This document shows positions 4,665-23,052 of a DNA stretch of 64,000 nucleotides, piece by piece. Within the stretch, counting starts at the first letter, position 1. Every line of letters starts with the position of its first letter. The stretch comes from Mesorhizobium sp. WSM3862 (GTDB taxonomy: Bacteria > Pseudomonadota > Alphaproteobacteria > Rhizobiales > Rhizobiaceae): assembly GCF_002294985.1 (NCBI RefSeq), contig NZ_NSGE01000001.1, positions 434,001 to 498,000 on the forward strand, read 5' to 3'. Position numbers and translations under genes: made by a program. Below the pieces are notes generated by a model, which worked only from the letters and a program-made list of their open reading frames with translations, was not told the origin of the DNA and did no database searches.

Positions 4665-5939
4665 TCAGGCGCTGACATTGCCCTTCTTTTCCTTCTGCTC
4701 GGAATAGATGTAAAGCGGCCGGGCGTTACCCGAGACCACCTCTTCCGAGATCACCACCTCGCGCACGCCTTCCAGCGCCGGAAGCTCGAACATCGTGTCG
4801 AGCAGGATCGCTTCCATGATGGAACGCAGGCCGCGCGCGCCGGTCTTGCGCTCGATGGCGCGCTTGGCGATCGCCGACAGCGCGTTCTCGTGGAAGGTGA
4901 GATCCACATTCTCCATCTCGAACAGCCGCTGATACTGCTTGACCAGCGCATTTTTCGGTTCCGTCAGGATCTGGATCAGCGCCGGCTCGTCGAGGTCCTC
5001 GAGCGTCGCCAGAACCGGCAGACGGCCGACGAATTCCGGGATCAGGCCGAATTTCAAAAGATCCTCGGGCTCGACCTGGCGGAACAGGTCGCCGGTGCGG
5101 CGATCCTCGGGCGACGCCACGGTTGCGCCGAAGCCGATCGAGGTCTTGCGGCCGCGATCCGAGATGATCTTGTCCAGTCCGGCAAAGGCGCCGCCGCAGA
5201 TGAACAGGATGTTGGCGGTGTCGACCTGCAGGAATTCCTGCTGCGGGTGCTTGCGGCCGCCCTGCGGCGGCACGGAAGCAACCGTGCCTTCCATGATCTT
5301 CAACAGCGCCTGCTGCACGCCCTCGCCCGAGACGTCGCGGGTGATCGACGGGTTGTCCGACTTGCGCGAGATCTTGTCGATCTCATCGATATAGACGATG
5401 CCGCGCTGGGCACGTTCGACATTGTAGTCGGCCGACTGCAAGAGCTTCAGGATGATGTTTTCGACGTCCTCGCCGACGTAACCGGCTTCGGTCAGCGTCG
5501 TGGCGTCGGCCATGGTGAACGGCACGTCGATGATGCGGGCGAGCGTCTGGGCGAGCAGCGTCTTGCCGCAGCCGGTCGGCCCGATCAGCAGGATGTTCGA
5601 CTTTGCCAATTCGACGTCGTTGTTCTTGCCGGCATGCGCGAGGCGCTTGTAGTGGTTGTGGACGGCCACCGACAGCACCCGCTTGGCGTAGGGCTGGCCG
5701 ATAACATAGTCGTCGAGAACCTTGAGGATCTCTTGCGGGGTCGGCACGCCCTCGCGCGACTTCACCATCGAGGTCTTGTTCTCCTCGCGGATGATGTCCA
5801 TGCAGAGTTCGACGCACTCGTCGCAGATGAAGACGGTCGGACCGGCGATCAGCTTGCGCACTTCGTGCTGGCTTTTGCCGCAAAACGAGCAATAGAGCGT
5901 GTTCTTTGAATCGCCGCCGTTGTTGCTAACTTTGCTCAT
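4665..5939 (-). CDS. clpX: ATP-dependent Clp protease ATP-binding subunit ClpX
   Basis: The 424-residue unfoldase recognises tagged substrates and feeds them to ClpP. It has an N-terminal zinc-binding domain with CSFC at about 17-20 and CDEC at about 39-42, then the AAA+ module with Walker A GPTGCGKT near residue 121, Walker [10 protein letters not shown], the arginine-rich [10 protein letters not shown] sensor-2 region, and an EGVQQALLK segment. Length matches the family. A strong ribosome site (AAAGGAC) precedes the ATG. It lies 295 bp downstream of clpP on the same strand, in the usual clpP-clpX-lon order. Confidence 0.97.
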
Positions 5940-15991: not shown

Positions 15992-16239
15992 GAGGCAACC
16001 GGCTCCGAGACCATGTGGTTCGCAGCCCAAGCCTATTGCATAGTTTGGTTTTCGCGGCCACCGATGCAGCCGCTCGCCGGCCTGCTGCGGCCACTTTGGT
16101 TTTCGCGCAACAGTGCCAAGGCGGTTGGCACCCGCCGATCAAATTTCCGCTGGACACGACTTACTTCCGCCGCACTTCCCCTGTCCGGGAGATTTCGCGG
16201 AGGCAGATGGCCAATTGCGGCCGGAATGGAAGTTTCGAC

Positions 16240-17316
16240 GTGCATTTGAAGACGATTTGCATCATTGCCCTGGCCTTGCTGGTTGTAGGCTGCGCGGGAC
16301 GACCGTCACAGGAAATCCTGGGCAGCGTCGTGGTGCCGACGACGGCGACCGAGATCGCCGGCAACCATTCGATCTTCATCGCCACCACCCGCAAGCGCTC
16401 AGACGACCCGAACAAGGTTTTCGACGGCGAGCGCTCGGCGACGCTCAATTACGCCCGCGTCAACGTCACCGTCCCGCCGGTTCATGAGACTGGTCAGATC
16501 GAGCGCCGCTCGCGCGGGACGTCGAACGATCCGACCAAATATTTCATGGCTTCCGAGGTCGTCGGCTACGACACGCAGCCGAAATTCTCCAGCGCGCTCA
16601 ATGCCGACATCGACGCCCGCGGCGGCCGCGTCATGGTCTTCGTCCACGGCTACAACACCGGCTTCGACGATGCCGTCTACCGTCTGACCCAGATCGTTCA
16701 CGATTCCGGATATCCCGGCACGCCGGTGCTTTTTTCATGGGCTTCGGGCGCCAAGACCACCGACTATGTCTATGACAAGGAAAGTGCCGCCGCCGCCCGC
16801 GACCAGTTGGAAGTGACGCTGAGAATGCTGGCGCAGACCGGTGCGCGCCGCATCGACATCGTCGCCCATTCGATGGGGACGTGGGTGACGATGGAAACAC
16901 TGCGACAGCTCGCCATCACCGGTGACCGCGACCTCGGCGGCAAGCTCGGCGATGTTCTCCTGGCCTCGCCCGACATCGACGTCGATGTCTTCAAGAGCCA
17001 GATGCGCCGCTACGGCAAGCCCGACAAGCCGTTCATCCTGCTCCTGTCGGACGACGACCGCGCTCTCCGGCTCTCCGGCCTGATTGCCGGTGCACGGCCG
17101 CGCGTCGGCGACTACAGGGACGCGGCCGACCTCGCCTCCTACGGCGTCACGGTGGTCGACCTCTCCAAGGTGAAGGGCAACGACAGCTTCAACCACACCA
17201 AATTCGCCGACAACCCGATGCTGGTGAAGATGATCGGCCAGCGGCTGCGCCAGGACGACGGCTTTGCCAGCGACCGCGACGTCACCGACCGGATCAGCCA
17301 GCTCGCCACTCAATAA
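16240..17316 (+). CDS. Lipoprotein alpha/beta hydrolase (DUF900 family), first tandem copy
   Basis: About 358 residues from the GTG at 16240, which gives a lipoprotein signal (LKTICIIALALLVVGCAG) with Cys as the lipidated residue. An ATG at 16207 has a GGAGG just upstream and would only lengthen the n-region. The hydrolase part carries VMVFVHGYNTGFDDAVYR (oxyanion region), VLFSWASGAK, the nucleophile elbow IVAHSMGTW and a late His in FNHTKFADNP. This is the DUF900 esterase-like family. The next gene is a close paralogue with the same order of motifs, 106 bp downstream. Probably anchored on the periplasmic side of the membrane; substrate unknown. Confidence 0.85.
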   Translation: MHLKTICIIALALLVVGCAGRPSQEILGSVVVPTTATEIAGNHSIFIATTRKRSDDPNKVFDGERSATLNYARVNVTVPPVHETGQIERRSRGTSNDPTKYFMASEVVGYDTQPKFSSALNADIDARGGRVMVFVHGYNTGFDDAVYRLTQIVHDSGYPGTPVLFSWASGAKTTDYVYDKESAAAARDQLEVTLRMLAQTGARRIDIVAHSMGTWVTMETLRQLAITGDRDLGGKLGDVLLASPDIDVDVFKSQMRRYGKPDKPFILLLSDDDRALRLSGLIAGARPRVGDYRDAADLASYGVTVVDLSKVKGNDSFNHTKFADNPMLVKMIGQRLRQDDGFASDRDVTDRISQLATQ

Positions 17317-17422
17317 CCGTGTTCACGCGGTTGCCGCCCTGCACGGACTTTGAACTGGACCAGACCGCTCGCTGGCTTTATCGAAGGAGCCCGAGAGGTT
17401 TGCCGCCCTTGGGGGATCCCGG

Positions 17423-18586
17423 GTGATCGTGCGTTGGAAGATCGTCCTTGGCCTTGCCTTCACGCTCGCCCTGACGGGCTGCGCCGGGCAGAACGCGCAT
17501 GACCTGCTCAATCGGAAGGCCGTTACCGCGCCTGCATCCGAAATTGCGGCCAAGCACGAGATCTTCGTCGCCACGACCCGGCAGCAGGCGACCAAGGACC
17601 CGCGGCAGGTTTTCGACGGCGACCGTTCGCTGACCACCAGCTACGCGCGCGTCGATGTCACGGTTCCAAAGACCCACCAGGTTGGCGCGATCGAGCGCGC
17701 CAAGGGTTCGGCCGACAGCATTCCGGCCAGGCAGTTCACCGCAACCGATGTCGTCCACTATGGGAACGCTTCGCAATTCGCGAAGGCGGTCGGCACCGAT
17801 ATTGCCATACGCGGCGACCGCGCCCTGGTCTTCGTGCACGGCTTCAACAACGGCTTCGACGATGGCGTTTACCGCCTGACGCAGATCGCGCACGACACGA
17901 ATTATCCGGGCACACCGGTGCTGTTCTCGTGGGCGTCGAGCGGCAAGACGACCGGCTACATTTATGACAAGGACAGCTCCACCGCCGCGCGCGACGACCT
18001 GGAAGCGACACTGAGGATGCTTGCCAAGTCACGCGCCAAAAGCATTGACATCATTGCCCATTCGATGGGGACCTGGCTGACGATGGAAGCTTTGCGCCAG
18101 CTCGCCATCACCGGCGACCGGGATCTCAACGGCAAGCTCGGCTACGTCATCCTCGCCTCGCCTGACATCGACGTGGATGTCTTCAAGAAGCAGATGATCC
18201 GCTACGGCAAGCCCGACAAGCCTTTCGCCATCCTTCTCTCGGGCGACGACCGGGCGCTCAAGCTGTCCAGCTTCATTTCCGGCGAAAAGCCGCGCGTCGG
18301 CGATTACGACAACGCGGCAGATCTCGCCAACTACGGCGTGACGGTTGTCGATCTGACCCAAACCAAGGGCGGAGACCGGTTGAACCATGCCAAATTCGCC
18401 GACAATCCGATCCTGGTGCAGTTGCTGGGCAATCGACTGCGCACGCCTGCCGGTCTTGCCTCCGACGAGCCGGATCCAACGCAGCTCAACAATATCGGTC
18501 AGGGTCTCGGCAAGGCGGTCGGCTCGGTCGCCGAGGTGGTCATCACCACGCCGTTCAGGGTGCTGACGATCGCCACCGGCGGCTGA
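17423..18586 (+). CDS. Lipoprotein alpha/beta hydrolase (DUF900 family), second tandem copy
   Basis: The 387-residue paralogue starts with GTG (MIVRWKIVLGLAFTLALTGC), giving a lipobox LTGC. It shares long identical stretches with its upstream neighbour: HEIFVATTR, FVHGFNNGFDDGVYRLTQ, IIAHSMGTWLTMEALRQL and LASPDIDVDVF, including the nucleophile Ser and the C-terminal NHAKFADNP with the likely catalytic His. It has about 30 extra C-terminal residues (NIGQGLGKAVGSVAEVV... ) absent from the first copy. The pair clearly arose by tandem duplication. Function unknown; periplasmic esterase-like activity is inferred. Confidence 0.86.
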   Translation: MIVRWKIVLGLAFTLALTGCAGQNAHDLLNRKAVTAPASEIAAKHEIFVATTRQQATKDPRQVFDGDRSLTTSYARVDVTVPKTHQVGAIERAKGSADSIPARQFTATDVVHYGNASQFAKAVGTDIAIRGDRALVFVHGFNNGFDDGVYRLTQIAHDTNYPGTPVLFSWASSGKTTGYIYDKDSSTAARDDLEATLRMLAKSRAKSIDIIAHSMGTWLTMEALRQLAITGDRDLNGKLGYVILASPDIDVDVFKKQMIRYGKPDKPFAILLSGDDRALKLSSFISGEKPRVGDYDNAADLANYGVTVVDLTQTKGGDRLNHAKFADNPILVQLLGNRLRTPAGLASDEPDPTQLNNIGQGLGKAVGSVAEVVITTPFRVLTIATGG

Positions 18587-20835: not shown

Positions 20836-20925
20836 ACCACTGTTGCAGGAATACAATTCCGTTTTCGGGCGAATAACGCTAGGTTGCACCGAGAAGTTTT
20901 CGAAACCGCCATTTCGGAGCGCTCG

Positions 20926-21594
20926 ATGGGTCGCCTGACACTTGCCAGTGCCGGCTTTTTCGCCCTGCTGTCCGGGCCGGCCTTGGCCGCGGACGCGATC
21001 GCCGACCTGCCCATGACTGCGCCGGGCTTCGATTGGACAGGCTATTATGCCGGCCTGCAGGCCGGCTATGGCTGGGGCTCATCTGACATCTCCGGCACCG
21101 AAGGCGAGCCGTTCGCCGCTTCTCCCGATGTCGACGGCGGCTTCGTCGGCGGCCATGTCGCCGGCCTCTGGCAGTTCAATCAGGCGGTGATCGGCGCGCG
21201 CGCTGAGCTCAACTATGCCTCGATCGACGGTTCGGCCTTGCTCGACCCTGGCAATGCCGTCGGCACCGAGGTCAAATGGCTGGGATCGATCAATGCCGAA
21301 GCCGGCTTGGCGGTCGATCGCTGGCTGATCTATGGCGTCGGGGGCGTCGCCTTCGCCGGTATCGAGACCTCGCAAGATGTCGGCGGCAGCGGCTTCGCCA
21401 GGACACGCACCGGCACCGGCTGGACGATCGGCGCCGGGGTCGACTATGCGCTGAGCAGCAACATCGTCGTCGGCGCCCAATACCGTTACTACGATTTCGG
21501 CAAGGAGCATTTCGACGTCCCGGACGACTTCTCCGATCGTGATCAGGACCTGAAGCTCCATACCCTGGGCGTAAACTTCAGCTACAAATTCTGA
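20926..21594 (+). CDS. Outer membrane beta-barrel protein (Omp25/Omp31-like)
   Basis: About 222 residues from the ATG at 20926 with ribosome site GGAG. The signal peptide (MGRLTLASAGFFALLSG... ALA) is followed by FDWTGYYAGLQAGYGW, the entry strand typical of the alphaproteobacterial Omp25/Omp31 barrel family. Alternating glycine- and aromatic-rich strands follow, for example NIVVGAQYRYYDFG, ending in HTLGVNFSYKF with the C-terminal Phe used by the BAM assembly machinery. Expected in the outer membrane as an eight-stranded barrel; specific role unknown. Confidence 0.87.
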   Translation: MGRLTLASAGFFALLSGPALAADAIADLPMTAPGFDWTGYYAGLQAGYGWGSSDISGTEGEPFAASPDVDGGFVGGHVAGLWQFNQAVIGARAELNYASIDGSALLDPGNAVGTEVKWLGSINAEAGLAVDRWLIYGVGGVAFAGIETSQDVGGSGFARTRTGTGWTIGAGVDYALSSNIVVGAQYRYYDFGKEHFDVPDDFSDRDQDLKLHTLGVNFSYKF

Positions 21595-21789
21595 TTTGCG
21601 GAGCAGCTACGCGGAAAATCCAACCGCATCCTTCAAGGAAAATCCCGATTGGCGGAACTTCATGCCAAAGGGATTTGTCGAGCATGTCAGCGCGCGTGCT
21701 AACCCAGCCGCTCCACAATGGTCCTTGCACAAGGTACGCCTCAACAAACGCCCACGTGGCTGCGCCTCTAAGCGCTGAGGAATCCCATA

Positions 21790-22014
21790 ATGATAATGAT
21801 GGTAGCGGTGGTTGTCTCACTCGGTTTGGCGATCTTCCTAGTGGAACGCTACGACCTGTTCGACGGGAAGAAGTGGCGGCGCGCATCGGAACCGAAGATC
21901 GCTCGAGCCTATATGCTGCTATTTGTGACCGTCGCCCTTGCCGGCGCGGCGGTGTTCTTTCACGAGGCCGTGGTTGCTAAAGTGATAACACCGACCGAAC
22001 GGCTCCCAGGGTAA
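21790..22014 (+). CDS. Possible small two-helix membrane protein
   Basis: A 74-residue open frame with two hydrophobic stretches (MVAVVVSLGLAIFLV and YMLLFVTVALAGAAVFF) separated by a basic loop KKWRRASEPK. GAGGA lies upstream of the ATG cluster at 21790, 21796 and 21799. I recognise no family. Base composition in this stretch is less GC-rich than the neighbours. It may be a real small gene; support is modest. Confidence 0.42.
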   Translation: MIMMVAVVVSLGLAIFLVERYDLFDGKKWRRASEPKIARAYMLLFVTVALAGAAVFFHEAVVAKVITPTERLPG

Positions 22015-22131
22015 GTAGCTAGCGCTTCACTTACCCTAGTGCTAATCGGTGCGCCGCGAGCCACACATGAACTCTGGCAATCGTGTGGGATTTTTCGTGG
22101 GAGATCGGTGGTAAAACCCCACCATGTGGGA

Positions 22132-22220
22132 GTGGGCGTGGCGGAACTGGTATACGCAGCAGACTTAAAATCTGCCGGTGTTTCAAGCACTTACGGGTTC
22201 AAATCCCGTCGCCCACACCA
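22132..22220 (+). tRNA. tRNA-Leu (anticodon UAA)
   Basis: An 89-nt tRNA with encoded CCA. The acceptor stem GTGGGCG (22132-22138) pairs fully with CGCCCAC (22210-22216), followed by A and CCA. The D-arm is GCG..CGC, and the anticodon stem GCAGA/TCTGC holds the loop CTTAAAA with TAA at 22166-22168. A long class II variable arm (GTG TTTCAA GCAC) and the T-arm ACGGG-TTCAAAT-CCCGT complete it. The long variable arm and UAA anticodon identify leucine. Confidence 0.95.
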
Positions 22221-22227
22221 ACTCGTC

Positions 22228-22288
22228 AAAGGGACTTAAAATCCCTCGATCTCTGATCGTACGGGTTCGATTCCCGTCGTCCGCACCA
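22228..22288 (+). pseudogene. 3' fragment of a second tRNA-Leu(UAA)
   Basis: Eight bases after the intact tRNA-Leu, a second tRNA-like segment starts at the anticodon stem: AGGGA-CTTAAAA-TCCCT, again with anticodon TAA, then a variable arm CGATC-TCT-GATCG, T-arm ACGGG-TTCGATT-CCCGT, acceptor strand CGTCCGC, A and CCA. The 5' acceptor strand (expected GCGGACG) and D-arm are absent. It differs from the intact neighbour in every stem except the T stem, so it is not a simple partial duplication of it. It looks like the 3' remnant left at a recombination or attachment site. Confidence 0.85.
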
Positions 22289-22320
22289 CCCTTCGCTCCT
22301 CGCTTCGGGTGGCAGGCCAC

Positions 22321-22899
22321 TCAACCCTTGATCGGATTGAGCTTCAGGTGCTGGATCAAAATGATGGTCTTGGCGTCGACGATGCGGCCGTCGGCGATGC
22401 CGGCCAGCGCCTCGTCGAGCGGCATTTCCAGCACCTCGATGTCTTCGCCCTCTTCCGGAGCTCCGCCGCCGTCGGAGATACGGTCGGCCGGCGAATAGCG
22501 CGCGGTAAAGAGCCAGAGCCGTTCGGTCACGCTGCCGGGGCTCATATAGGGCGCGAACAGCCGCTCAACGTTCTTCAAATAATAGCCGAGTTCCTCTTCC
22601 GCTTCCTTGCGGATGCAGGTTTCCGGATCGTTTTCGTCGAGCAGACCGGCACAGGCCTCGATCAGCGGCTCGCGATGGCCAGTGACATAGGCCGGATAGC
22701 GGAACTGCCGCACCAGCAGCACCGTCGAGCGCTGCGGATCGAAAGGCAGGATCACCGCGCCGTCGCCGCGATCGTAGGTCTGGCGGATCTGCGTCTCCCA
22801 GCGCCCATCGCGGCGGCGATAGTCGAGCACCGTCTTCTTGAGCACCGCCCAATCGTCGGACAGGATTTCTTCAGACTGGATGCGGACGCGATCTTCCAT
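22321..22899 (-). CDS. Nudix hydrolase, NudK / ADP-ribose pyrophosphatase-like
   Basis: About 192 residues from the ATG at 22899, with GGAG 6 bp upstream; an ATG four codons earlier is less well placed. The Nudix box reads GLLDENDPETCIRKEAEEELGY, keeping the metal-binding REAxEE core as RKEAEEELG. The N-terminal WAVLKKTVLDYRRRDG and VLLVRQFRYPAY, and a following family loop APYMSPGSVTERLWLF, match the GDP-mannose pyrophosphatase NudK / ADP-sugar pyrophosphatase branch. It likely acts on a nucleoside diphosphate sugar. It converges on the tRNA region. Confidence 0.86.
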   Translation of the reverse strand: MEDRVRIQSEEILSDDWAVLKKTVLDYRRRDGRWETQIRQTYDRGDGAVILPFDPQRSTVLLVRQFRYPAYVTGHREPLIEACAGLLDENDPETCIRKEAEEELGYYLKNVERLFAPYMSPGSVTERLWLFTARYSPADRISDGGGAPEEGEDIEVLEMPLDEALAGIADGRIVDAKTIILIQHLKLNPIKG

Positions 22900-23052
22900 G
22901 ATGGGCTCCATGCTGTCGGCAAGCGTTATCGGCGAACAGGCGCGGGCGCAATCCTGGAAACCGACTGGTCCAGCGTGACTTTCACCGGCTGTTGTCTGGC
23001 GCGAAGTGCCGCGGCTGCCTAGATAGCAATATCTCTCCCAGGAGCCGTTTCC

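Follow-up and report, generated by a model that had tools for sequence, protein, structure and literature searches.

Introduction

Lysogeny that depends on a phage-borne tRNA has been described for actinobacteriophages by Guerrero-Bustamante and Hatfull (2024, PMC10865867), who considered it plausible in other phages as well. In Sinorhizobium meliloti two intact Lo5R7ANS-like prophages are reported in which a tRNA-Leu(UAG) replaces the inactivated host gene, and according to that article there is no evidence for a use of phage-borne tRNA genes as new integration sites (PMC11476347). Excerpts from three further articles state that phiLM21-like prophages at tRNA-Leu(UAA) rebuild the gene (PMC12429752), that T7-like cyanophages integrate into tRNA-Leu (PMC8776855) and that the tRNA of phage LUZ100 was perhaps picked up by imprecise excision (PMC10134795). 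We analyzed a tRNA-Leu(UAA) locus in a 64-kb stretch of rhizobial DNA (the window), in which an intact tRNA gene is directly followed by the 3' part of another one. Judged from sequence comparison, this locus is very probably the relic of a tRNA-dependent lysogeny by a T7-like temperate phage, of which the viral tRNA was retained. For relics that keep the viral tRNA alone, or for a nested use of such a tRNA, we found no account in the open-access literature, which does not prove that none exists.

Results

The only tRNA called by ARAGORN in the window is a tRNA-Leu(taa), and the Rfam tRNA model agrees (Table 1), so that the intact gene proposed in a first-pass annotation of this DNA is borne out. 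The adjoining segment starts 8 bp after this gene and consists of an anticodon arm, a variable arm, a T-arm, the 3' acceptor strand and CCA. It is identical to the 3' part of the intact 86-nt tRNA-Leu(UAA) of relatives, with a 60/60 match in 11 of 19 same-genus loci and lower or broken copies in the remaining ones. The fragment noticed in the annotation is therefore real, and the acceptor GCGGACG that had been predicted for its parent gene is indeed that of the native tRNA-Leu(UAA) in the relatives. A functional split gene was rejected, as the native 5' half has no match in the window with up to three mismatches allowed and ARAGORN calls no tRNA in the fragment by itself.

Table 1. Features of the tRNA-Leu(UAA) locus and its flanks (positions in the window)
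Feature	Position	Strand	Evidence or remark
Outer-membrane beta-barrel gene, left native flank	20884..21594	+	Pfam OMP_b-brl; 17/19 same-genus loci
Open frame, 60 aa	21597..21779	+	no match outside the window's genome
ORF, 74 aa, in the foreign segment left of the tRNA	21790..22014	+	no credible family
Three GTGGGA repeats directly upstream of the tRNA	22085..22131	+	candidate arm-type integrase sites
Complete tRNA-Leu(UAA), phage origin	22132..22220	+	ARAGORN; Rfam 59.5 bits; 97.8% to G534 tRNA
8-bp spacer between phage tRNA and native remnant	22221..22228	+	presumably element-derived; same length in G534
Native tRNA-Leu(UAA) remnant, nt 27-86 (3' part and CCA)	22229..22288	+	100% over 60 nt to relatives
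Crossover core GACTTAAAA, anticodon loop, attR side	22233..22241	+	common to native halves, 11/13 relatives
Nudix-type hydrolase gene (putative, named from sequence), right native flank	22321..22911	-	18/19 loci

A comparison of the intact tRNA with both candidate sources establishes the origin and identity of the two parts. It is nearly identical to a tRNA in a prophage of a relative (G534), and its identity to the native gene, from which it differs throughout, is 71.9%; it was therefore not built from the native 5' half, and the fragment, which is entirely native, is no copy of its neighbour. The same comparison bears on conventional islands, which we observed at the same anticodon-loop site in four genomes (L073 in G105, L074 in G168, L075 in G097, L076 in G107; about 5-16 kb); they restore the native gene, and their 3' fragment lies beside an integrase of another sequence type. 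Such an island would leave a restored native gene at one junction and the displaced 3' end as the fragment, and these four genomes indeed hold an intact native gene with a native 3' fragment and an integrase 5-16 kb further on. As an account of the window this has next to no probability, since its intact tRNA is distant from the native gene and matches the G534 tRNA over its length. Two other elements look as if the gene had been rebuilt from its 5' side: besides the intact native-type gene there is another native 5' half, located about 1.4 kb upstream in L077 (G125) and 32 kb upstream in L080/L081 (G132). In G004 a further decayed 3' fragment of tRNA-Leu(UAA) is located about 2.4 kb downstream of the intact native gene (L045, 11488-11539).

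A second full tRNA-Leu(UAA), which the annotation had suggested looking for, was not found in the window's genome. A search for a tRNA-Leu(UAA) pattern reaching from the D-arm to the anticodon (at most two mismatches) gave the gene of Table 1 as the sole exact match, and two further matches are a tRNA-Leu(CAA) and no tRNA, respectively; the search covered the 29 contigs, with unassembled sequence outside its reach. The cell therefore appears to be without any other tRNA-Leu(UAA), and the intact tRNA presumably serves as that of the host.

Synteny with relatives extends over both flanks of the locus, between which some 0.5 kb of foreign DNA is left (21595-22131, with two short open frames). A large island still present at 22221-22230 was therefore rejected. 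The similarity of the relatives at the left flank ends at 21594-21611, at or just past the stop codon of the outer-membrane protein gene. Among the 19 same-genus loci compared, this flank is unmatched in G009 and G016 and the right flank, from 22321, in the stretch of G030; in G003 and G035 the tRNA is inverted relative to both flanks. The 60-aa frame is probably a gene end cut off at the edge of a deletion. For the 74-aa frame we obtained one sub-threshold Pfam match and neither a PHROG nor a phage match, and the segment 21595-22084 gave nothing credible in the Pfam, PHROG and phage comparisons. Probes for integrase, RNA polymerase and the MarR regulator had no match between 15001 and 30000 of the window, and the RNA polymerase had none anywhere in its genome. 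The locus is a relic and not a lysogen.

Three of the 11 GTGGGA copies in the window fall within the 47 bp directly upstream of the tRNA, and in the window as a whole this motif is rarer than in shuffled sequence (11 versus a mean of 24.5). Similar repeats stand at the equivalent place in G534, and GTGGGA or GTGACA repeats occur in other elements, which is why we regard them as potential arm-type sites. No sigma-70-like promoter was found upstream of the tRNA on the plus strand. Elsewhere in the window, at 16015-18586, two neighbouring ORFs encode similar proteins and show cross matches of 71-76% to relatives at the DNA level; their products are presumably alpha/beta-hydrolase-like.

Contig G534 of a relative (47.8 kb) carries a T7-like prophage in the same tRNA gene. 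It encodes a single-subunit RNA polymerase, a family A DNA polymerase, a head-tail connector, a T7-type terminase and a nozzle protein as well as a MarR regulator and a tyrosine integrase. Its right end reads integrase, GTGGGA repeats, tRNA-Leu(UAA), 8 bp and the native 3' half, which includes the core; the nudix region lies about 1.8 kb beyond this half. The prophage thus shares its right end with the window, which matches it by 92% over 22096-22324. As the contig starts inside the prophage, the left junction is not visible.

A pattern search of viral contigs for a tRNA 3' end followed by the core returned 13 contigs. Two of them (L102, L103) lack the arrangement, being mere clusters of tRNAs, and the count of RNA polymerases excludes them. 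A T7-like RNA polymerase is encoded by 10 of the other 11 (control: 0 of 14 genomes), among which L106, L107 and L113 are near-identical in the stretch compared and L111 has its tRNA cut by the contig end; the one without is a 16-kb record. All seven viral records searched for a tyrosine integrase, G534 included, have one (Phage_integrase match). In L106 and L108 repeats flank the tRNA and the core on both sides, as expected of a free attP. The most frequent tRNA type of the relics described below (10/19, in reverse orientation) has no exact match in the viral contigs. A further 33-kb contig, L097 (G428, contig C1), also looks like a free attP, with an integrase, GTGACA repeats, a tRNA-Leu(UAA), the core and repeats again; it belongs to a small-genome assembly with 8% contamination.

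The arrangement recurs within the genus, which is probably Mesorhizobium. It is not common to all relatives, which would have refuted the reading of the annotation: in 122 of 146 genomes the native gene is covered over its full length by the best match (84-100% identity; each genome was counted on a listed match of its own). In 19 genomes the native gene is broken, in all cases with a complete foreign tRNA-Leu(UAA) at the locus, and five fall into neither class (G014, G024, G070, G075, G150). The foreign tRNAs were grouped into seven types. Both native halves flank an insert in 15 of the 19 broken loci; G149 has lost the 3' half, and the 5' half was found neither in the window nor in the fetched stretches of G089 and G100. 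The native halves were rejoined for 13 of the 15 genomes, G022 and G025 being left out. In 11 of them the halves share a core of 9-17 bp containing GACTTAAAA, and joining restores the native gene (10 without mismatch, one with a single mismatch); the inserts of these loci measure 0.76-2.64 kb. In G065 and G094 no shared core was obtained because one core copy carries substitutions. ARAGORN called no tRNA at attL or attR in any of the 13 loci tested. These inserts also bear on the possibility of two old tandem tRNA-Leu(UAA) genes, the second of which was shortened by a deletion. The two segments adjoin and belong to the same isoacceptor, but no genus locus scanned with ARAGORN has two intact tRNA-Leu(UAA) genes and in relatives an insert separates the two native halves, so that we consider a tandem origin exceedingly improbable.

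Gene trees of the two flanks need 13 and 10 gains or losses to account for the broken state, and well-supported branches force at least seven of these changes in each tree; the trees hold 33 and 29 of 42 genomes, namely those whose fetched stretch contained the marker, and this sample is not random. A single-subunit RNA polymerase is present in five of the 146 genomes, and there is no native tRNA-Leu(UAA) half within the 1.5-kb flanks of these five places. The five include G074, one of the 19 genomes with a broken native gene, in which the polymerase lies at a different place on the contig, and G014, which is one of those in neither class. The window's genome itself has one homologue of the Amorphus integrase introduced below (L094, G000:C23:123264-123974, 42% over residues 105-340), without a tRNA within the 3.7 kb fetched, and seven other same-genus genomes have a similar one.

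Phage remains were detected in two of the 19 relics, with integrase and RNA polymerase in G103 and MarR in G124. In G103 the start of the RNA polymerase gene is located at the left end and the end of the integrase gene to the right, as expected of a prophage that was opened at attP and then gutted. The same probes found nothing in the other 17 relics (stretches of 3-19 kb). This lack of homologues, together with the small size of the relic elements (about 0.6-2.6 kb) and their mostly cargo-like ORFs without phage hallmarks, would fit a non-viral integrative element or island that carried the tRNA by chance. We nevertheless regard such an origin as unlikely, because a T7-like prophage whose right end agrees with the window has the same tRNA type, nearly all viral contigs with the arrangement encode a T7-like RNA polymerase, and G103 keeps both phage gene ends. 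A T7-like phage is most likely the element that integrated. A small mobile element without integrase was also considered as an agent of its own and dropped in view of the phage genes in G103 and G124 and the G534 prophage.

The cargo of the relics L065, L067, L033, L044 and L043 includes DUF4145, DUF2971, DUF7683, leucine-rich repeats and a CI-like helix-turn-helix protein, and four of the ten cargo proteins scanned are without a family.

One broken locus, in G022, is nested. On its outer left a decayed native 5' half is followed by an insert and the 5' half of a first foreign tRNA; in the middle lies another insert, which contains a second foreign tRNA in intact form, and on the right the 3' half of the first foreign tRNA precedes the native 3' half, likewise decayed. 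When the halves of the first foreign tRNA are rejoined, a tRNA-Leu(UAA) is called, which together with this order indicates that the target of the second element was the tRNA that the first had brought. By eye, the first insert is similar in its left part to that of the closely related G029, which has another tRNA type, and an exchange between elements is therefore likely. The integrase, RNA polymerase and MarR probes revealed no phage genes in the two elements; following the general pattern, both were presumably phages.

The G534 integrase is 27-34% identical, over at least 92% of its length, to integrases of temperate T7-like phages, among them Mesorhizobium phage Lo5R7ANS, the Rhizobium phages Pasto, RHEph01 and RHEph21, Roseobacter CRP phages, LUZ100 and pelagiphage HTVC200P. 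In six of 12 such phages fetched, ARAGORN called a tRNA-Leu around the integrase, which is tRNA-Leu(UAA) in Pasto, LUZ100 and HTVC200P and tRNA-Leu(UAG) in Lo5R7ANS, RHEph01 and RHEph21; the stretches fetched for BB8, CRP-118, CRP-403, CRP-804, HTVC109P and ProddE gave none. HTVC109P has in its place a stretch resembling a tRNA 5' half up to the core. In four of the six phages with a tRNA-Leu, the MarR, integrase and RNA polymerase genes are consecutive as annotated, and a core-like anticodon-loop sequence is found in LUZ100, HTVC200P, Pasto, Lo5R7ANS and RHEph21. Lo5R7ANS (L135, about 4950-5280) has a complete tRNA-Leu(UAG) followed by the anticodon-loop core GATTTAGGTT, flanked on either side by GTGACA repeats, which is the same design for the other leucine tRNA. 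A comparison of the window (22085-22300) with named phages gave partial matches to 72 records, none of which covers more than 80% of the query, and in the best 30 of the 72 at most 42% of it is matched; a close relative of this tRNA together with its fragment is thus absent from the collection of named phages.

Outside the genus, the chromosome of Amorphus coralli DSM 19760 (G053) contains an element with a tyrosine integrase, repeats, a complete tRNA-Leu(UAA), 11 bp, the core and a 3' half. Homologues of this integrase were found in 16 of 297 genomes of the order; the fetched stretch holds a tRNA-Leu at four of the 16 loci (UAA in G053, G278 and G428, UAG in G346), a tRNA-Lys at one and no tRNA at 11. 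A strict pattern of an intact tRNA and an adjoining fragment was found among 397 genomes of the order in the window's genome only, but this pattern was too strict, since G053 is among the 397 and was missed.

Discussion

The first-pass annotation had left open whether the locus is the scar of an old integration or whether the intact tRNA was imported. Both readings turn out to be right and to describe one event. If the locus goes back to tRNA-dependent lysogeny, the tyrosine integrase of the phage would have split the only tRNA-Leu(UAA) gene of the host by recombination between attP and the anticodon loop of this gene, at the core GACTTAAAA. The attP presumably contained no tRNA half able to rebuild the host gene, and for this reason the complete tRNA-Leu(UAA) of the phage, encoded between the integrase gene and attP, would have taken over decoding. 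Later deletions may then have eliminated the left junction and the native 5' half along with the prophage and its integrase; they would have spared the viral tRNA, because it was now needed by the cell, and the native 3' remnant beside it. This order of events and the essential role of the viral tRNA are suggested by what persists at the locus and what does not. As the left junction is gone in the window, the scar may also have arrived ready-made by homologous recombination.

We consider it likely that the process works as a ratchet, in which phages repeatedly and permanently exchange an essential tRNA gene of the genus: every integration breaks the resident tRNA-Leu(UAA) and puts a viral one in its place, selection protects the viral tRNA while the prophage rots, and this tRNA is the next target, as at the nested locus of G022. 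The aftermath of tRNA-dependent lysogeny would thus be a bacterium apparently bound to a tRNA of viral origin. This offers a concrete route for the exchange of a conserved and presumably essential tRNA gene against a foreign one and explains why a tRNA fragment stands beside an intact tRNA. Furthermore, the intact gene, the prophage, the relic and the nested relic form a natural series for measuring the cost and the stability of the swap. The presence of a tRNA-Leu in several temperate T7-like phages may likewise be explained in this way.

As far as the consulted passages on the actinophages describe it, the systems are alike in that a tyrosine integrase uses a short core within a tRNA gene of the host, neither junction restores a tRNA and a phage tRNA of the same isotype compensates (PMC10865867). 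There, however, the tRNAs are tRNA-Lys, tRNA-Leu(CAA) and tRNA-Ile2, the phages are live and the dependence was shown by mutation, according to the same passages, whereas our case concerns tRNA-Leu(UAA), a rhizobial genus and T7-like phages, mostly as relics with a surviving tRNA. The S. meliloti prophages, as presented in the portion of the article cited above, are likewise related to T7-like phages, and a host tRNA-Leu gene is broken and replaced by that of the phage (PMC11476347). In contrast to the statement on new integration sites in that article, G022 is a case in which a tRNA gene brought by an element, presumably a phage, was used as one. Lo5R7ANS, Pasto, RHEph01, RHEph21, LUZ100 and HTVC200P resemble the G534 prophage in having an integrase homologue with a tRNA-Leu of their own nearby. 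Unlike the view of the LUZ100 authors in the excerpt mentioned in the introduction (PMC10134795), our comparison suggests that this tRNA complements the target of integration. The mechanism as such is known; its permanent, recurrent and in one case nested outcome, the replacement of the host tRNA, is the new part.
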